DNA from: Archangium lipolyticum
Lineage (GTDB): Bacteria > Myxococcota > Myxococcia > Myxococcales > Myxococcaceae
Direction: 5' to 3'
Assembly: GCF_024623785.1 (NCBI RefSeq)
Contig: NZ_JANKBZ010000024.1
Location: 1 to 64,000 of the forward strand
DNA: 64,000 nucleotides
The notes below the pieces were generated by a model, which made no database searches, was not told where the DNA came from, and was given only the letters and a program-made list of their open reading frames with translations. The translations under genes and the position numbers were made by a program. Below, piece by piece: positions 48,040 through 56,453 of the stretch (position 1 is its first letter; the number at the start of each line of letters is the position of its first letter).

Positions 48040-48123
48040 AGGGGGTCCAACCGATACCCGGTTTCTCAGTGTTTGATGCAGGAGAGGAGGCGGACGGGGT
48101 ATCCTCCGGAAGGTTTTCCCCCC

Positions 48124-50601
48124 ATGCATTCGAAGCCTCAGCCGACCGACGCCTCCCCCCGTCCCCCCGAGCTGCACGGCGCGACGGCCGCGCTGGCCCG
48201 GCGTGAGCGCTACCTGACCGCGCTGGTGGAGATTCAGCAGCGGCTGCTGGCGGCCTCGCCCGCGGAGAGCCTGTTCGAGGAATTGGTGGAGCCGCTGGGA
48301 GAGGCCTCGGGAGCCAGCCGGGCCTACCTCTTCGAGGCCCACCGCTCCCCGGACGGCAACCTGCTCTTCAGCCAGCGCGCCGAGTGGTGCGCCCCCGGAG
48401 TGAAGCCCGAGCTCGAGAACCCGGAGCTGCAGGACATGCACCTGGAGCGGCAGCTGCCGCACGTCTACGAGCTGCTGTCGCGAGGGCAGATCCTCTCCGC
48501 GCTGGTGAAGGACCTGCCCTCCGAGGAGCGAAGGCTCCTGGAGTCGCAGGACATCCTCTCCGTGCTCACGCTGCCGCTGTGGGTGCACGGCACGCTGTCG
48601 GGCTTCATCGGCTTCGACAACTGCGTGGAGGCGCGGGAGTGGGAGAAGCTGGAGGTGGACCTGCTGTGGGCGGCGGCCGGAGCCATCGCGCTGGCGATGG
48701 AGCAGCGGCAGTCGGCGCGGTCGCTGCGCGAGCGGGAGCTGCGCTTCCGGCGCATCGCGGAGAACGCCTCGGACGTGCTGTACCGCTACCAGCTGGCGGG
48801 CACGCGCAGCTTCGCCTTCGTCAGCGGCGTGGTGACGAAGAACCTGGGCTTCACCCCGGAGGAGCACTACAGGGATCCCGAGCTGTGGCACCGGCAGATG
48901 CACCCGGAGGACCGGGAGGTGCTGGAGCAGTTGCTGGCCGAGCCCGAGAAGCATGACTCGCCGGTGGTGGTGCGCTTCACCCGGCGGGACGGGCGCACGG
49001 TGTGGCTGCAACACGTGGTGACGCCGGTGATGGACGCCTCGGGGCTGTGCGTGGCGGTGGAGGGCATCGCCCGCGACATCACCGAGCGGCGCCAGTTCGA
49101 GGAGGCCCTCAAGCTGTCCGAGGCCAGCTTCCGCATCCTCCTGGAGGGCGTGCCGGACCCGGCGGCCATCCAGCGCGACGGGCGCATCATCTACGCCAAC
49201 GCGGCGCTGGTGTCCTCGCTGGGCTTCGCGCGCCCGCAGGAGCTGATGGGGCGGCGGCTGCGGGAGTTCGTGCTGGACGATCCGCCCACGCCCGAGGGCT
49301 CGGTGGCGCTGGTGACGGGCGAGCGGCGATTGATGCGGCGGGACGGAAAGGTGCGCGTGGCGGAGTTCGCCTCGCTGCCCCTGCTCTTCGATGGCGAGCC
49401 GGCCGTGGTGTCCATCGCGCGCGACGTCACCGAGCAGAGGCAGTTGCAGAGCCGCCTGTCGCTGGCGGACCGGATGGCCTCCATGGGGACGCTCGCGGCG
49501 GGCATCGCCCATGAAATCAACAACCCGCTGGCCTTCGTCATCTCCAACCTGGGCTTCCTGGCGGAGGAGATGAGCCGCTCGCCCGTGCTCGCGCGAGGCC
49601 CTGAGGAGTGGCGCTCGGTGCTGGCCGAGGCGCGCGAGGGCGCCGAGCGCGTGCGCCAGATCGTCCGCCAGCTCAAGGCCTTCTCGCGGCCGGACGAGGA
49701 GCGGGTGGAGCCGGTGGACGTGCACGCGGTGCTGGAGTCGGCGGTGACGCTGGCCGACAACGAAATCAAGCACCGTGCGCGGCTGCGGCGCGAGTTCGGG
49801 CCCGTGCCGCGCGTCATGGGCAACGAGGGCCGGCTGTGCCAGGTGTTCCTCAACCTGGTGGTGAACGCGGCCCAGGCCATCCCCGAGGGCGCGGCGGAGA
49901 GGAATGAGATCCGCCTGGTGACACGCCTGGGACAGGATGGGCGGGTGGTGGTGGAGGTGCAGGACACGGGCTCGGGCATCCCCCGGGAGGCGCTCGGGCG
50001 CATCTTCGACCCCTTCTACACGACGAAGCCGGTGGGCGTGGGCACGGGCCTGGGCCTGTCCATCTGCCACGGCATCATCACGAGCCTGGGCGGGGACATC
50101 TCCGTGGAGAGCGAGCCGGGCCAGGGCACCGTGGTGCGGGTGGTGCTGCCGGTCGCCGAGGAGTGCGCCCGGGTGGAGAAGCCGGTGCAGGCCCCGCAGC
50201 CGGCACCCACGGCCCAACGTGGACGGGTGCTCATCGTGGACGACGAGCCCGCGGTGGGCCGCTCGCTGCGGCGGATCCTCCGCGAGCACGACGTGGAGCT
50301 GGCCACCAGCGGGCGGCAGGCGCTGGAGCGGCTGACGGCGGACGGGCGATTCCACGTCATCCTGTGCGACGTGATGATGCCGGATTTTGGGGGCAAGGAC
50401 CTGTACGAGGCCATCCAGCAGGGCGGCTCGGGATTGGAGCAACGCTTCGTCTTCGTCTCCGGCGGGGCGTTCACCCAGGGGGCGAGGGACTTCCTGGCGC
50501 GGGTGCCCAACCCCACCCTGGAGAAGCCCTTCGACGAGGCCGCGGTGAAGCGCGTGGTGCGCGAGTTCGTGCTGCGCAACGCGGAGGCCGTGAGGAGCTG
50601 A
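48124..50601 (+). CDS. Hybrid histidine kinase (GAF-PAS-PAS-HisKA-HATPase-REC)
   Basis: An 825-residue kinase; an ATG at 48076 is possible, but the one at 48124 has GGAAGG upstream. GAF covers about residues 25-205, followed by two PAS domains (about 215-340 with the FTRRDGRTVWLQHV and DITERR ends, and about 340-455). H463 lies in GIAHEINNPLAFV, the NtrB-like H box. The ATPase domain includes NLVVNAAQAIP, DTGSGIP and GTGLGLSI. A C-terminal receiver has VDDEP and phospho-acceptor D749 in LCDVMMPDFGG. This is the only receiver domain in the three-kinase cluster. Confidence 0.93.
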   Translation: MHSKPQPTDASPRPPELHGATAALARRERYLTALVEIQQRLLAASPAESLFEELVEPLGEASGASRAYLFEAHRSPDGNLLFSQRAEWCAPGVKPELENPELQDMHLERQLPHVYELLSRGQILSALVKDLPSEERRLLESQDILSVLTLPLWVHGTLSGFIGFDNCVEAREWEKLEVDLLWAAAGAIALAMEQRQSARSLRERELRFRRIAENASDVLYRYQLAGTRSFAFVSGVVTKNLGFTPEEHYRDPELWHRQMHPEDREVLEQLLAEPEKHDSPVVVRFTRRDGRTVWLQHVVTPVMDASGLCVAVEGIARDITERRQFEEALKLSEASFRILLEGVPDPAAIQRDGRIIYANAALVSSLGFARPQELMGRRLREFVLDDPPTPEGSVALVTGERRLMRRDGKVRVAEFASLPLLFDGEPAVVSIARDVTEQRQLQSRLSLADRMASMGTLAAGIAHEINNPLAFVISNLGFLAEEMSRSPVLARGPEEWRSVLAEAREGAERVRQIVRQLKAFSRPDEERVEPVDVHAVLESAVTLADNEIKHRARLRREFGPVPRVMGNEGRLCQVFLNLVVNAAQAIPEGAAERNEIRLVTRLGQDGRVVVEVQDTGSGIPREALGRIFDPFYTTKPVGVGTGLGLSICHGIITSLGGDISVESEPGQGTVVRVVLPVAEECARVEKPVQAPQPAPTAQRGRVLIVDDEPAVGRSLRRILREHDVELATSGRQALERLTADGRFHVILCDVMMPDFGGKDLYEAIQQGGSGLEQRFVFVSGGAFTQGARDFLARVPNPTLEKPFDEAAVKRVVREFVLRNAEAVRS

Positions 50602-50615
50602 GCGGACGGAACCGG

Positions 50616-51425
50616 TCAGTGAAGTGGCTGGCCAGGTGTGTCCAGGACGGGGCGGCGGGTGGGGAGTGTATGGCGCTCGTGGTCGTAGAAGCACTCGGGG
50701 CCGAGCAGGGAGATGAGCTCGCGCTCGCGGGCGATGCCCGCCTCGGTGCCCGCTTCAGTGGGCAGCTCGTAGGGCTGGACGAGGACGAGGTCCTCACCGA
50801 AAGACTCGCGGCACTCCGAGGGCAGAGTTTCGAGCCGCTGGCCGAACATGCGCACGAAGGGCGGCCCGTAGAAGTTGCGCCAGACGAGGCCCGTGAGGCC
50901 CTCGCTGTAGTCGCGCACGGTGAACTCCTCTTCCGAATAGGTGAAGTCCTTTCCCTCATCCGTGGGGAGGCTCTTGTGCACGAGCCTCCAGTGTTTGCCG
51001 TGAAGATCCGTATCCAACCCGGCCAGGGCCAGCGGAGACTGGACGAGGCGCATGAGCTCGACCACCTGCTGTGCATGGGCCGCGCGCCACGAGGCTTTCG
51101 AGGCCGAGCTCGCGGACGTCAGCCAGGAGATCATCCCTGTGTATGGCGGGGCACCGGTCGTGACGGGATAAATCGAGATGAAGTCCCGATCGGTGCGTGC
51201 CGCCACGTGCAAGTTGCCATGCTTTTCGTAGTAGGCGACGAGCGCACCAAGGTCGAGGCGGTGCGGGTCGATGGGTTCTCTCAAGGATGCATAGCCATAA
51301 CGCCTGGGTTCGAACCAACGGAATTCGCGAAGGACGAGGGAGAGAAACTCTCCAATCACCGAGGGAGAAGGGCGGCCTGGGGGCAGTCCGATCTGAGTAT
51401 CAAAATACTTGATAGCCATATCCAT
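50616..51425 (-). CDS. Immunity protein, Imm52-like, paired with the upstream nuclease toxin
   Basis: A 269-residue soluble protein from the ATG at 51425; a GTG at 51461 would add 12 residues. No signal peptide. The composition is alpha/beta, with motifs such as WRNFYGPPFVRMFGQRLETL and an end with LISLLGPECFYDHERH. From memory this matches the Imm52 group, which accompanies Tox-REase-5 toxins. It lies 57 bp (or 21 bp with the GTG) downstream of the toxin stop on the same strand, the usual toxin-immunity order. It should protect the producer's cytoplasm. Base composition is slightly lower in GC near its start than the flanking genes. Confidence 0.75.
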   Translation of the reverse strand: MDMAIKYFDTQIGLPPGRPSPSVIGEFLSLVLREFRWFEPRRYGYASLREPIDPHRLDLGALVAYYEKHGNLHVAARTDRDFISIYPVTTGAPPYTGMISWLTSASSASKASWRAAHAQQVVELMRLVQSPLALAGLDTDLHGKHWRLVHKSLPTDEGKDFTYSEEEFTVRDYSEGLTGLVWRNFYGPPFVRMFGQRLETLPSECRESFGEDLVLVQPYELPTEAGTEAGIARERELISLLGPECFYDHERHTLPTRRPVLDTPGQPLH

Positions 51426-51482
51426 CTTGAGTGGAAAACACCACGTTGGGGAACGTAACACCCGGCCTGTCGGAAAAGAGGG

Positions 51483-54400
51483 TCACGGATAAGGTTTCAC
51501 CGCTGCCTTTCCTTGTGTTTTCAACCTGTTCAAGACGCGAAGAAGCGGCTTCGAAAGGTGCGTAGCTCCATCAGGGTGCCGGGAGGAACGGACCCAGAGT
51601 TCGATGTGACCGCCATATGTCTCCACATACCCAAGCATCGCCTCGAGGTTCCCGGACAGGGATAACACCTTTCGTGCTTTGGCCTCGACGAAGGGGTAGG
51701 GCTGACCCCATACCAGCTCCACCGGGCTGCCCTTCACCGAGTCGGGCATGAAGCCCCGGGCGCCGCTCCCCGGCGGCGGCAACATCATCGCGGTGTTGCG
51801 CTCGTACTTCCCTGCCTGGAGGATGGCGTCCTCGAAGGCGTTGCCCGCCGGCCGGTTCTCGAGAATGGTCTCGTACATGCGCGCCCAGTCCGCGTCCGGC
51901 TGGAAGGAGAAGTGACGGTACTTCTCGGGGTGACGGAACTGATAGTCAATCCAGCGCTGTGCCTTGTGGGAGGGGCTGCCGGGCAGCAGCCTGCTTCCGT
52001 CCGCCAGCGTACGCGCTCCCAGCAACGGCACCTTCTGGCCTGCCCTCAGGGCCTCGGCGGCCTCGCGCAGCGGCGCCTCCAGGCCATGCGCTACACGCTG
52101 AAGGAACTGCATCTCCTCCTCCGTGAAGGTGTGCCCCTTGGAGGCAGCCACCATCAGGCGCTCCACTTCCCTGGCGTTCTCGGGCGAGAGGCGCGCGGCC
52201 ACGCGCGAGAGCACCCGCACCTCATCCAGACTCCGCCCCGTGAGCAGGGCGAAGCGCTGAAGGCCCGCCTCTCCGGCATCCTTCAGCACCTTGCCGGTGA
52301 CGAAGGGCAGCAGCACGCCCACCGCGCACAGCACGCGCTCGGTCGGGCTGAGCTGGTGGCCCGTGAGGCTGCGTCCGCTGAAGGCCGCATGTGCGTCCGT
52401 CACCTCGCCCGCGCCCGGCGCGAGGCCCACCAGCAGCTCCAGCACCAGCTCGTCGGTGGTGTACACCTCCGGATCGAAGGCCTCGGTGTAGTCCAGGTGC
52501 ACCGGCGCCATGCGTCCCAGGTGCACCACGGTGGCCAGGGCCGAGCGGCTCGCCAGCAGGTACAGGGCCACCTGGTCGGGAGTGCGCTCGAGGAAGTCAG
52601 GGTCCTCCGTATGCGCGTAGGCCCAGGCGAGCGTTGCATCACCCAGGGCCCGCAGGGACCGCTCGCGCAGGGGTGACTCGCTGACGAGGTAGCCCGGCGC
52701 CACCCGGTGCGGAGGCGCGGAGTACGTGGCCAGCAGGCGTTTTCCCCACTGCTCGTACTCGGCCAGCTTGCGCTGCACCGCCCGCCAGCGCACCTCGCGC
52801 TGCCTCTCCTCCTCCATCAGCTCCGCGTACCGCGTCAGGGGAGAGCCGGTCCTCTCCAGCGCCGAATCCGGTTGAAGGAGCAACCAGCCCTCCAGCTTCT
52901 TCAATGCCGTGAGCCCCTCGCGACGTGCCTCTTCGGAGACAGTGCCCACCTGGAGCTTCTCTCTCTGGTTGCGCAGGAAGACTTCGTGGGGCGCCTGGAG
53001 CGTGGTGGCCTGAAGCACCGGGCCGGTGGACTCCTCCTCCTCCGTCCACATGACCAGACCCCGCCGCAGTGTCAGCACCACCTCGCCCTCCCGCCCCCGC
53101 GCGTATCGGTACAGAGCCCATTCCAGCAGGGGGCGCACGTCCTCCGCCTTCACCGCCCCCACCTCGGCGCCCGAGCCCTCGTGCGCGCGGACACGTAGCA
53201 ACCGCACCCGCTCGCCTTCCACGCGCAGGCCCAGCGCCAGCCACGCCCCCAGCCGCGTCAACCCGCGCGCCGCCGCCCACGCCCGGGTGCGTACCTCCTT
53301 CGTCCCCTCCATTTCCCAGGCGGGAGACGGCGTGCTGGTATCCGCCTCGTGAGTGCAGGGAGGCAGCGGCCCGCTCCCGGACTCCACGACGAACTCCAGG
53401 TGTTGGCCCGTGTCTCCCTCCCACCGCTCGCGCGTGCGGCCCACCGCGCACAGCCGCTCCTCCGCGACACCGCTGTCCAGCAGGTGGCGTCGCACGGTGG
53501 CGGCCCGGCGGTGAGCGAGCGCCAGTGCCAGTGCCCCGCTGTCTCCAGGGTCCGTCGTCGCCACCACCCGCACGCGTCGCACCTCCGGGCGGGAGAGCAG
53601 CACCGCCGCCACCTCCTCCAGCACGGGGACCGAGTCGGGCAGCAACACCTCCTGCCCCGTGGCGAAGCGCACCGGCCCCCGTGTCACCAACCGCCCATCC
53701 TCCTCTCGGACCCGGGGACAGCCCTCACGTCCACCTGGACCCGCCGCATGGCGGGGGCAGACGTCCCGCCTGTCCACCACGCCGTCCCCGTCCGAGTCCT
53801 CCCCGTCCACGTCCAGGAGCAGGGGTGGCATGGAGGCTGGCGGTGCTGGACGAGGCGGCCGTTTGTAGCGTTCCAGGGCATGCCACTCGGAGCCCCGGTA
53901 GGGGACCCAGACCACCGAGGAGAAGAGGCGCAAGGTGGGTGCCGTCAGCGAGCAGCCGCAACCGCCACCTCCACCTACCGTGACGGTGAGACCCAAAGGG
54001 CTGTACCAGCGCAACCCCACCAGCCCCTCCACGGGCACCTGCCTCGCCAGCCCCGGCTGTCCCACCAGCGGAGTACTCCCGGTGAGAGTGCCCACGGCCG
54101 TCACGCCCAGACCGCGCAACACGGGCACTTCCGCGCCCAGGCCCACGGTGGCTGCATTGCCCCAGCGCACGCCGAGGAACTCATGCGTGGGGCGCAGCCA
54201 CAACCCGGCATCCAGCGCCAGCAGCGCCCCCGAGTCGAAGCGGTAGTCCACCACCGCTCCCGGCATCCACGTGAGCGCGCCCTCCCCGGCGAACGCCTCG
54301 CGCGAACCGGTGGGCAGTCCCACGCCGAGCGTGAGCGCGGCGCCCCACCCCGAGTCCTCCGCGCGCCGGCGCAGACCGGGCACGGCCACCTTGCCGCGCA

Positions 54401-54806
54401 GCCGCACGTCTCCCAGGGCGAAGGAGCGCACGGTGCCCTCTGAGCTGATCGCCTCCAGGTTGTCCGAGCCCTGTGCCAGCACCAGCGGCACGGTGAGACC
54501 CGCTTCCACCCCGTCGGCCACCCCCACCGAGGCCAGCAGGTCCAATTGCAGCCGGGGACCCACCACGCTCAGCGCCTTCACGTCACTGCCGTGCACCCGG
54601 AGCACCAGCGGGTCCAACGCGAAGTGGAGGAAGACCCCCGCCGACGCGGAGTGAGGCGAGAGCGCGCGGGACTGGTCCACTCCCACCACGTCCTGAGGCG
54701 AGCCCAGGGGCCGGAAGGCCTGCACATCGAAGCGCTCCTCCTGGGCCGAGGCGGCCCTCGTGGACAGCGCCACCAGCACGACCGCGAAGAGGGAGGGCAT
54801 CCGCAT
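51483..54806 (-). CDS. Outer-membrane barrel-OmpA protein with C-terminal restriction-endonuclease-fold toxin
   Basis: A 1107-residue exported protein. After the signal peptide (SLFAVVLVALSTRAASA), residues about 25-320 are a strand-rich region with an outer-membrane barrel look. At about 332-352 lies a Ca-binding thrombospondin-3-like stretch (DVDGEDSDGDGVVDRRD) and at about 365-490 an OmpA-like peptidoglycan-binding domain. A helical region of about 300 residues leads to a pre-toxin-TG-like block (FSGRSLTGHQLSPTERVL, about 805-825). The last ~150 residues match the Tox-REase-5 plan: D1022, then E1041-x-K1043 in FVEAKAR. The immunity gene follows. No lipobox, unlike SitA toxins. Confidence 0.85.
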   Translation of the reverse strand: MRMPSLFAVVLVALSTRAASAQEERFDVQAFRPLGSPQDVVGVDQSRALSPHSASAGVFLHFALDPLVLRVHGSDVKALSVVGPRLQLDLLASVGVADGVEAGLTVPLVLAQGSDNLEAISSEGTVRSFALGDVRLRGKVAVPGLRRRAEDSGWGAALTLGVGLPTGSREAFAGEGALTWMPGAVVDYRFDSGALLALDAGLWLRPTHEFLGVRWGNAATVGLGAEVPVLRGLGVTAVGTLTGSTPLVGQPGLARQVPVEGLVGLRWYSPLGLTVTVGGGGGCGCSLTAPTLRLFSSVVWVPYRGSEWHALERYKRPPRPAPPASMPPLLLDVDGEDSDGDGVVDRRDVCPRHAAGPGGREGCPRVREEDGRLVTRGPVRFATGQEVLLPDSVPVLEEVAAVLLSRPEVRRVRVVATTDPGDSGALALALAHRRAATVRRHLLDSGVAEERLCAVGRTRERWEGDTGQHLEFVVESGSGPLPPCTHEADTSTPSPAWEMEGTKEVRTRAWAAARGLTRLGAWLALGLRVEGERVRLLRVRAHEGSGAEVGAVKAEDVRPLLEWALYRYARGREGEVVLTLRRGLVMWTEEEESTGPVLQATTLQAPHEVFLRNQREKLQVGTVSEEARREGLTALKKLEGWLLLQPDSALERTGSPLTRYAELMEEERQREVRWRAVQRKLAEYEQWGKRLLATYSAPPHRVAPGYLVSESPLRERSLRALGDATLAWAYAHTEDPDFLERTPDQVALYLLASRSALATVVHLGRMAPVHLDYTEAFDPEVYTTDELVLELLVGLAPGAGEVTDAHAAFSGRSLTGHQLSPTERVLCAVGVLLPFVTGKVLKDAGEAGLQRFALLTGRSLDEVRVLSRVAARLSPENAREVERLMVAASKGHTFTEEEMQFLQRVAHGLEAPLREAAEALRAGQKVPLLGARTLADGSRLLPGSPSHKAQRWIDYQFRHPEKYRHFSFQPDADWARMYETILENRPAGNAFEDAILQAGKYERNTAMMLPPPGSGARGFMPDSVKGSPVELVWGQPYPFVEAKARKVLSLSGNLEAMLGYVETYGGHIELWVRSSRHPDGATHLSKPLLRVLNRLKTQGKAAVKPYP

Positions 54807-55046
54807 GTTCCGCTCCGGCCTGCTTCACGACGTCACAGGGGTGGTCAGAATCGCCCTGAAGGCCAGCCGCTGGCCAGGGAGGGACAGGCGAGGGCGCCCT
54901 ACCCGCCCGACCGTCCCAGAACGAGTAGGATGGGGAACCGAGGGCATCGGTCGATTGCCGGACCCTCCTCCTCCTGACGGATGGGGTGGGCGCACCACTT
55001 GGGACAGGCTGAGCTCCTGTCCTCCCCCGCATTCCGAGGTCCCTCG

Positions 55047-56453
55047 ATGAACCGGACAACGCTGCTGCTGGCCACCACCGCGCTGCTCGCCCTCGCGGCG
55101 GGGGTGGTGGGCCTGCCCCGCCAGAAGGACACGAGCCACACGGTGGCCCAGCCCGGCGAGGCTCCCACGGGCGTGGTGCTGCAACCCGTCGCGGCCAGCA
55201 GCGGCGTGCTGACGCTGGAAGGCAAGCTGTCCGGGGCCTACCTGATGGCGGGGCCGAGCGAGGCCTACGCCGCCCTCACCGTGCGCGCGGACAAGGCCCG
55301 GAACACGGAGACGCGGCAGCCGGTGAGCCTGGCGCTGGTCATCGACCGCTCGGGCTCCATGCGCGGGCAGAAGCTGGTGGACGCCAAACACGCGGCACGC
55401 ATGCTCGTGGAGCGCCTGGGCCTGGAGGACCGGCTGGCCCTGGTGCACTACGGCACGGACGTGAGCGTCTTCCCCAGCACCGCGGTGTCGGAGGACGCAC
55501 GCGCGCGGATGCTGGACTTCGTGGACGCCATCGAGGACGAGGGCTCCACCAACATCAGCGGAGGCCTGGAGGCGGCGGCCCAGGAGCTGCGGCCGTACGC
55601 GAGGAGCTTCCGGGTGAGTCGCATCGTGCTGCTGAGCGACGGGCAGCCCACCGCGGGACTCACCGAGGATGGGGAGCTGCGGCGGCTCGCGGGCAACTTC
55701 CAGCGCGAGGGCATGGCGGTGAGCGCCCTGGGCGTGGGCGAGGACTTCAACGAGCGGCTGATGCGGGGCATGGCCGAGGAGGGCGGCGGCTTCTACGGCT
55801 ACATCCAGGACTCGGAGCAGCTGGCGGACATCTTCCGGCGCGAGTTGGAGCAGGCGGCGGGCACGGTGGCGCGCGGGGTGGAGCTGCGGCTGAATCTACC
55901 CGAGGGCGTCACGGACGCGGAGGCCATGGGCCTGCCGGCGCGGCGCGAGGGCCGCACCCTGGTGGTGCCACTGTACGACCTGGCCGGTGGCCAGGACACG
56001 CGGGTGGTGGTGAAGCTGACCCTCTCGCTGGAGCCCACCGAGGCCCCCCGGGGGGTGCTGAGCGCGCGGCTGCGGTACTGGGACGTGCTGGCCGAGCGCC
56101 AGACGGAGGTGGACCTGGGCCTCACGGCGAAGGTGACGGACGACGAGGCCCTGGTGCGGGCCAACCTGGACCAGGAGGTGCGGGTGCACGCGGTGCGGGC
56201 GCTCGGGGCCCGGGAAATGCAAGCGGCGGCCGAGCAGATGAAGCAGGGCAACCGGGAGAAGGCCCTGGGCATGCTGGACAATGCCCGGCGGCTCTTCGGC
56301 TCGTCGGCCGAGGCGCTGGCGGGGGAGGTTGCGGACGTGGACCGGACGAAGGCAGCCTATCTCAACGCCCAGGATGAAACCGCCGTGCGGCGTGAGGCGT
56401 TACAGCTTCATCGCAAGTCGCTGAAGACCTTCGGACAGAACAACGCCTACTGA
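55047..56453 (+). CDS. Exported VWA-domain protein
   Basis: A 468-residue protein with an N-terminal signal or anchor (TTLLLATTALLALAAGVVG). The von Willebrand A domain spans about residues 90-270; the MIDAS metal motif DRSGSM is complete, with later GSTNISGG and LLSDGQPT supplying the other metal contacts. The C-terminal part is beta-rich and then helical (REMQAAAEQMKQGNREKAL). It resembles bacterial VWA/VIT-type surface proteins that bind ligands through a divalent cation. It is followed after 13 bp by a membrane coiled-coil protein, likely in the same operon. Confidence 0.9.
   Translation: MNRTTLLLATTALLALAAGVVGLPRQKDTSHTVAQPGEAPTGVVLQPVAASSGVLTLEGKLSGAYLMAGPSEAYAALTVRADKARNTETRQPVSLALVIDRSGSMRGQKLVDAKHAARMLVERLGLEDRLALVHYGTDVSVFPSTAVSEDARARMLDFVDAIEDEGSTNISGGLEAAAQELRPYARSFRVSRIVLLSDGQPTAGLTEDGELRRLAGNFQREGMAVSALGVGEDFNERLMRGMAEEGGGFYGYIQDSEQLADIFRRELEQAAGTVARGVELRLNLPEGVTDAEAMGLPARREGRTLVVPLYDLAGGQDTRVVVKLTLSLEPTEAPRGVLSARLRYWDVLAERQTEVDLGLTAKVTDDEALVRANLDQEVRVHAVRALGAREMQAAAEQMKQGNREKALGMLDNARRLFGSSAEALAGEVADVDRTKAAYLNAQDETAVRREALQLHRKSLKTFGQNNAY

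Follow-up and report, generated by a model that had tools for sequence, protein, structure and literature searches.

A TraB-derived protein fused to a SitA-like toxin body, with a putative immunity gene, in Archangium lipolyticum

The TraB-derived front of the fusion gene and its described relatives

TraB lets related cells merge their outer membranes and swap their contents, and the SitA toxins reportedly comprise six published families, which are defined by their escort domains. Here, we describe a gene in which a TraB-derived front is joined to a toxin body whose closest relatives are SitA-like lipoproteins, and which is accompanied by a putative immunity gene. The gene lies in the soil myxobacterium Archangium lipolyticum, in a window (the whole stretch of DNA that was analysed) covering the first 64,000 nucleotides of contig NZ_JANKBZ010000024.1. 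According to the available portions of published work, outer-membrane exchange (OME) transfers outer-membrane proteins and lipids in bulk, some proteins not being exchanged (PMC6626042), and SitA toxins are lipoprotein cargo of OME that enter via the escort domain (PMC8546572). In the same partial record, TraA and TraB form 1:1 complexes (PMC12045341, citing another paper), and a functional TraB-GFP gathers with TraA where cells touch and shows fluid behaviour in the membrane (PMC6626042). Peptidoglycan is believed to hold TraB in place (PMC5562445, PMC6626042); a TraB without its OmpA domain retains focus formation and adhesion (PMC12045341, citing another paper).

The fusion gene of A. lipolyticum is an uninterrupted open reading frame (ORF) of 1107 codons at 51483-54806 on the minus strand. 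Its parts are the following:

51483..54806, minus strand: TraB-toxin fusion gene, 1107 aa; open frame matching exchanger_TraB at 597.8 bits, with PT-TG and OmpA over the Pfam cut-off
54741..54806, minus strand: signal peptide, residues 1-22 (...RAASAQ), placed by eye, in the position found in canonical TraB
53862..54743, minus strand: TraB beta-barrel domain, residues 22-315, 66% identical to the canonical TraB of the same genome; barrel assigned by homology
53691..53861, minus strand: shortened TSP3 linker, residues 316-372, from alignment to TraBs
53355..53690, minus strand: OmpA-like domain, eroded, with the TraB tail as far as a conserved PPC, residues 373-484, from alignment
53313..53354, minus strand: fusion junction, residues 485-498, where TraB homology ends and homology to mature lipoprotein toxins begins
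52446..53312, minus strand: N-terminal region of the toxin body, residues 499-787, 69-74% identical to the closest Archangium toxins
52275..52445, minus strand: PT-TG pre-toxin domain, residues 788-844, match to PF14449
51486..51929, minus strand: predicted PD-(D/E)xK nuclease-fold toxin domain, residues 960-1107, with D1022, E1041 and K1043; moderate fold matches

By homology, the front of the protein is TraB, the partner of the kin receptor TraA in OME. The exchanger_TraB model (NCBIfam NF033763) matched it with E 1e-179 and 597.8 bits against a cut-off of 700, the runner-up model reaching 40.1 bits, and because of this difference a generic OmpA protein was rejected. The homology to TraB is clear, at a score short of full profile membership. 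The Pfam models over their cut-off were OmpA (residues 381-458, E 5.7e-7) and PT-TG (residues 788-844, E 2.4e-7), with TSP3 (E 0.012) and the barrel-like Phenol_MetA_deg (E 0.0057) below it. The fusion shares with TraB the signal peptide, barrel, TSP3 and OmpA, in this order, and the tail to PPC; compared with TraB, however, the TSP3 region is shortened, OmpA is eroded, and a toxin body of about 610 residues stands in place of the tail after PPC. A sequence-only reading made before this analysis had described a barrel, a TSP3 linker, an OmpA domain, a PT-TG-like block and a toxin end, and this architecture was borne out by the Pfam and TraB matches. The link to TraA/TraB exchange that it proposed proved stronger than claimed: since the barrel is TraB-derived, the link has the support of homology in addition to that of the organism. 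Neither a pattern search nor inspection of the sequence found a lipobox cysteine or pattern in the signal peptide (end ...SAQ-E). Its start (MRMPSLF...) is closer to the MRTPS of some Archangium lipoprotein toxins than to the MKRSGSF of the TraB from the same genome, and it may possibly be a trace of the fusion's origin.

Comparison with 50 fetched canonical TraBs, a subset of those found, indicates that the barrel is under strong constraint and that the wall-binding OmpA domain is eroded. The alignment also held the fusion and a distant outgroup (L103, left outside the invariant-site counts), and sites were treated as independent. In the barrel, the fusion retains 83 of the 87 invariant TraB sites and 90 of 207 variable ones (Fisher p 3e-19). 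Its retention of invariant sites lies inside the canonical range found by a leave-one-out test, in which the lowest canonical value was 94.6%. The TSP3 region retains 14 of 25 near-invariant sites, with 8 deleted. In the OmpA region (residues 373-478), invariant sites are kept hardly more often than variable ones (22/42 and 27/65, p 0.32), and retention is below that of the barrel (p 2e-8); in the leave-one-out test over residues 373-465, the fusion keeps 65.6% of 32 sites, whereas the lowest canonical TraB keeps 91.4%. For the barrel, simple pairwise NG86 estimates of dN/dS against five canonical TraBs were 0.33-0.43, where five pairs of canonical TraBs gave 0.31-0.67; for OmpA they were 0.65-0.81, as compared with 0.34-0.56 between canonical TraBs. 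The Pal model scored 21.8 bits on the fusion as compared to 62.5 on canonical TraB, and the sites lost include the N and S of YN..LS.RRA as well as the NRRVEF stretch. In the tree of the 50 canonical TraBs, the outgroup and the fusion, the latter groups with the six Archangium TraBs and four from a neighbouring genus, 11 sequences in all, with support 86/90. Its branch measures 1.12, as compared with a median of 0.019 for end branches.

The same genome (12.6 Mb in 75 contigs) encodes canonical TraA (1100.3 bits) and TraB (976.8 bits) in overlapping genes on contig C4. The exchange machine therefore exists without the fusion copy, which is an extra, orphan TraB. The fusion gene is not in an overlapping operon with traA and, as its locus lies outside the traA operon, it is a TraB-derived fusion and not the TraB of that operon. 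The three TraB matches of this genome at E <= 1e-70 are two pieces of the canonical gene and the fusion. Among 195 Myxococcota genomes, 71 had a TraB-profile match at E <= 1e-60; the searches scored the best first-look candidates, up to 13 per genome in one search and 7 in the 195-genome search. Among the 63 listed places above 400 bits, only the frame in the window (1113 residues) exceeds 715 residues, and no second toxin-fused TraB was found among the best candidates (at most 7 per genome) of the 195 genomes. In the parts of the literature on TraB, OME or SitA with toxins, and on pre-toxin lipoproteins, that were available, we recognised no description of such a fusion. As read from the sequence, the fusion and its immunity gene are real and unusual, and come from one genome. 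As a separate observation, three proteins of 1426-1801 aa (L045:6140-10516, L043:7107-12512 and L049:7448-11728) carry Ig-like/DUF11 regions before a TraB-like barrel and OmpA, and those at L045 and L043 have partial, below-cut-off matches to the gliding-motility models AgmC or CglD. They may perhaps represent a second, adhesin-type use of TraB-like barrels.

The toxin body and its immunity gene

TraB homology reaches the conserved PPC (residues 482-484), and homology to the toxin relatives starts from about residue 494-499. Relatives of the body were found via PT-TG in 15 of 96 family genomes and via the middle region in 30 of 92 genomes, and they occur in Archangium and neighbouring genera. 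A home-made lipobox rule, run without a control, detected the signal in 24 of 34 relatives read; eight more were recognised by eye, and in the remaining two (L105, L110) the ORF is short at the N-terminus. An alignment was made of the window sequence and 29 of the 34 relatives, leaving out L105 and one or two near-duplicates each at L104, L115 and L120; short or truncated pieces were omitted from alignments A3 and A4. In the midpoint-rooted tree of the body, the fusion and six Archangium relatives together make up a clade of seven (support 100/100), within which the six group at 88/94; five of the six have a lipobox and the sixth is L110. The fusion's end branch is 0.19 and the tree median is 0.16. 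Because the fusion body is nested among lipoproteins, the lipoprotein state looks ancestral, and TraB seems to have replaced the lipid anchor of the toxin body. Other aligned copies of the body in the same genome are 60-62% identical to that of the fusion.

The fusion shares with SitA/SitI a C-terminal nuclease-type toxin, a long N-terminal region, an immunity gene directly downstream (at a gap of 57 or 63 bp) and presence/absence between relatives. It differs from SitA in having no lipobox and a barrel in place of the lipid anchor, although the nearest relatives of its body are lipoproteins. The earlier statement that the toxin is not of the SitA type therefore holds for the anchor and fails for the body. 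TIGR02269, a supposed marker of SitA proteins, did not match the fusion gene at E <= 0.001 and is common in all six Archangium genomes. By analogy, the N-terminal region of the body is possibly an escort-like domain. PT-TG follows it (PF14449; 36.2 bits in the genome search and 31 bits on the whole protein, against a gathering score of 23.5) and was matched in 29 of the 30 aligned members. A PT-TG ahead of the toxin is also the arrangement in other PT-TG proteins, from which the fusion differs in being the only one among the body relatives compared to have a TraB front.

The toxin end contains the conserved D...ExK of the PD-(D/E)xK superfamily, and all 30 aligned sequences, that of the window included, have D1022, E1041 and K1043 unchanged. 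In the body model, the last 73 residues reach pLDDT averages of 89 to 96 in blocks of ten. The top three structural neighbours of the modelled C-terminus (505-623 of the model) are PD-(D/E)xK nucleases (2vld Z 6.5, 5gke Z 6.2, 9ibq Z 5.7); at Z 4.9 and below, the same stretch matched FokI, SfsA, MspJI and other nucleases as well as the non-nucleases RNA polymerase subunit E and CD38. Foldseek gave no match to the 623-residue body model at E <= 0.001. By the criteria of the comparison tool itself, such neighbours suggest a nuclease fold and fall short of proving it; the restriction-endonuclease-type end assigned from the sequence agrees with the invariant residues. The particular family suggested for it, Tox-REase-5, was rejected, with no Pfam and no profile-profile match. 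The Tox-REase-5 model (PF15648) found 11 places in the genome at E <= 10, the fusion gene not among them, and hhalign against these 11 domains gave E 0.27 over 8 columns. The likeness to Tox-REase-5/Imm52 systems such as TseT-TsiT consists in the putative restriction-endonuclease-type fold with ExK and in the predicted structure of the immunity protein described below; the motif of the fusion, however, is D(S/A)V...ExK and that of Tox-REase-5 is (F/Y)DG...(E/D)xK, and neither Pfam model matches the pair. Judged by these comparisons, the toxin is of another family, probably with the restriction-endonuclease fold. TseT was outside the 50 listed structural matches of the body, which excludes nothing.

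In a sequence search of the PDB, the best E values were 0.12 for the body and 0.33 for the immunity protein. PADLOC returned no match, plasmids gave none at E <= 1e-10, and no relative of the toxin body or the TraB barrel was found in viral contigs. Within the fusion's toxin family, three tandem toxin-immunity pairs occur in Archangium G005 (L104:2614-12053), and in G004 (L108:6328-8333) the second toxin of a tandem pair consists of two overlapping frames, the immunity frame behind it being still open.

Directly behind the toxin lies the second gene:

50616..51425, minus strand: immunity gene of 269 aa if it starts at the ATG at 51425, or of 267 aa if at 51419, assigned by linkage and an Imm52-like model

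The ORF spans 50616-51461 on the minus strand, and the start is most likely the ATG at 51425 or 51419, judging from the alignment to its relatives. The position of an immunity gene just behind the toxin, as initially noted, is confirmed by the gap of 57 or 63 bp and by the relatives: for 28 of the 29 toxin 3' ends in 30 named loci, a homologous immunity gene begins at most 52 bp away. In the exception, L125, the toxin frame is broken and the immunity homology lies 1014 bp off. The immunity model has a mean pLDDT of 77.0 and pTM of 0.79 (two of five models at 75 or above, three at about 61-63). Its neighbours are PA0821 (Z 13.1), four P. aeruginosa entries of TsiT, PA3908 or an Imm52 domain (12.2, 11.6, 11.3 and 10.9) and BPSL2088 (10.9); the next, the immunity partner in a CdiA toxin complex, scores Z 7.0 and the one after it 5.1. 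Foldseek at E <= 0.001 returned PA0821 and BPSL2088 only. The model thus predicts an Imm52-type fold. Plain membership of Imm52 was rejected, as there was no Pfam or profile-profile match: the Imm52 model (PF15579) hit 17 places in the genome at E <= 10, the immunity gene not being one of them, and it matched none of 17 members of the immunity family. The designation Imm52-like is consequently retained for the predicted fold and given up for the sequence family. In published work on polymorphic toxins, Imm52 is paired with Tox-REase-5 (PMC3482391). As the models of both families miss this pair and match other loci of the genome, it constitutes a separate toxin-immunity family of similar predicted fold. 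The 11 Tox-REase-5 and 17 Imm52 matches suggest a large related arsenal in the genome. A Tox-REase-5 toxin of 613 aa (50.4 bits) followed by an Imm52 gene is located about 4 kb past the window end (G000:C24:68320-69383, L194).

The cassette and its insertion site

The two genes form a compact insert:

50607..54932, minus strand: inserted two-gene cassette between the conserved genes 48073-50601 and 55047-56453

Both flanking genes were found in all six Archangium genomes, and that at 48073-50601 reads, in our own interpretation of its sequence, as a putative sensor kinase. The cassette is missing at this site in all five other Archangium genomes, where no similarity to TraB, toxin or immunity gene was detected at the site (tblastn E <= 1e-3). 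In the nearest genome, G006, whose flanks are 93-95% identical, flank homology ends at 50606 and restarts at 54933. In G002, G003, G004 and G005 it breaks within about 25 bp of 50606/54933, and the aligned parts of the flanks are 110-129 bp apart. A gene for a matrixin-type metalloprotease occupies the same insertion site in G006 (L163:4026-4883), and the spot therefore looks like a variable site. The GC content is 62-63% in the toxin and immunity parts and 71-75% in the TraB and middle parts. When the 126-bp upstream stretch was compared with DNA upstream of the toxin genes or of traB, only short, chance-like matches were obtained.

Possible action of the fusion and its alternatives

We consider it somewhat more likely than not that the locus joins, by natural fusion, a TraB paralogue and a SitA-like nuclease-type toxin body with a cognate immunity gene, in a compact cassette, and that it reaches other cells through OME. 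Its likeliest role is in kin discrimination, as a toxin that rides the OME junction or joins it; its crossing, its contact with TraA, its cytoplasmic entry and its nuclease activity are what we infer. It is proposed that the barrel seats the fusion in the outer membrane, the toxin hanging in the periplasm, and that this barrel is probably still able to meet TraA. The weakened cell-wall anchor would leave the fusion mobile in the membrane, and such a mobile protein could reach a TraA-matched neighbour during outer-membrane fusion. The toxin body might then enter the cytoplasm by the route of its lipoprotein relatives and cut nucleic acid unless the recipient holds the immunity protein, which would also shield the producer and its clonemates. 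The conserved barrel and the eroded OmpA domain lead to the simplest reading, namely a membrane-seated toxin that meets TraA, is loosely tied to the wall, and crosses or acts at the junction. The more specific form of this proposal, in which a TraB paralogue docks TraA, has shed its wall anchor and brings a nuclease to the place at which matched cells join their outer membranes, so that only TraA-compatible partners without immunity are hit, is a possibility to which we give rather less than an even chance.

Several points weigh against this proposal. In the available portions of the M. xanthus work, TraA stays untransferred, and the authors attribute this to the binding of TraB to the wall (PMC5562445, PMC6626042); removal of OmpA is reported to leave TraB unable to support OME (PMC12045341, citing another paper). 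The sequence-only reading had regarded such a protein as a natural cargo. The erosion of OmpA makes transfer plausible for the fusion, but transfer is not automatic, because, in these same partial accounts, peptidoglycan is believed to fix TraB, and TraA stays behind. The TD and RRA stretches of OmpA are retained in the fusion and therefore wall binding may persist. The TraB-profile score is under the NCBI cut-off, whereas the canonical copy scores 976.8 bits, and the place of the fusion in the TraB tree is unsure because of the long branch and an odd letter make-up, both flagged by the program. The fusion is known from one genome only. Among the lipoprotein relatives found, the toxin end is not swapped (the same domain in 30/30, in a set built from body matches). 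The model of the fusion body (residues 485-1107) is weak overall (mean pLDDT 67.9, pTM 0.38), and all nuclease fold matches lie below Z 8.

The untransferred TraA of M. xanthus and the retained TD and RRA stretches, together with a barrel conserved as TraB, also favour a fusion that stays tied to the wall and is not itself cargo. It would join TraA at the junction, where the toxin would be cut off, for example near PT-TG, and passed on, or it would penalise only cells fusing with the donor. However, OmpA is the most eroded part and TSP3 is shortened, the opposite of what a fixed anchor needs, and we regard such a weapon as unlikely. If, on the other hand, the barrel just seated the protein without any dealings with TraA or exchange, the toxin would act after lysis, vesicle release or through another contact system. 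The cassette, which carries no traA gene and has room for two genes only, and the decay of the OmpA region are in line with this. The retention of 83 of 87 TraB-invariant barrel residues, which would exceed the needs of mere anchoring, and the membership of the toxin-body relatives in the lipoproteins, a known class of OME cargo, argue the other way, making this explanation distinctly unlikely. We think it very unlikely that the gene is the relic of an accidental fusion, inactive as TraB or as toxin and kept by the immunity gene or by chance. Its single occurrence, the long branch of its TraB part and the decay of OmpA would agree with a relic; yet its 1107 codons are free of stops despite a barrel just 66% like the copy in its own genome, the barrel has a purifying pattern, the nuclease motif is intact, and the end branch of the toxin part is near the tree median. 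A contig misjoin that set traB beside a toxin gene is hardly credible: the assembly is a draft of 75 contigs and the junction is in no second genome, but no stand-alone copy of either half was seen among the TraB matches and aligned body copies of the genome, the reading frame runs on through the junction, and the cassette is cleanly placed in a site that is empty of it in the relatives.

In the part of the literature that was available, the OME toxins described so far are lipoprotein cargo. If the proposal of an exchange-borne TraB fusion is correct, then an OME toxin would be an integral outer-membrane protein and not a lipoprotein, which is not described in the accessible sections of the papers found, and a toxin made from TraB would show the exchange machinery weaponised directly. 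The fusion would be a natural probe of whether TraA and TraB escape exchange because TraB is bound to the wall. It would likewise probe how an integral outer-membrane protein behaves in exchange and by which path a periplasmic toxin body reaches the cytoplasm. Close lipoprotein relatives share about 70% of the body sequence, so these questions would be directly testable by comparison.

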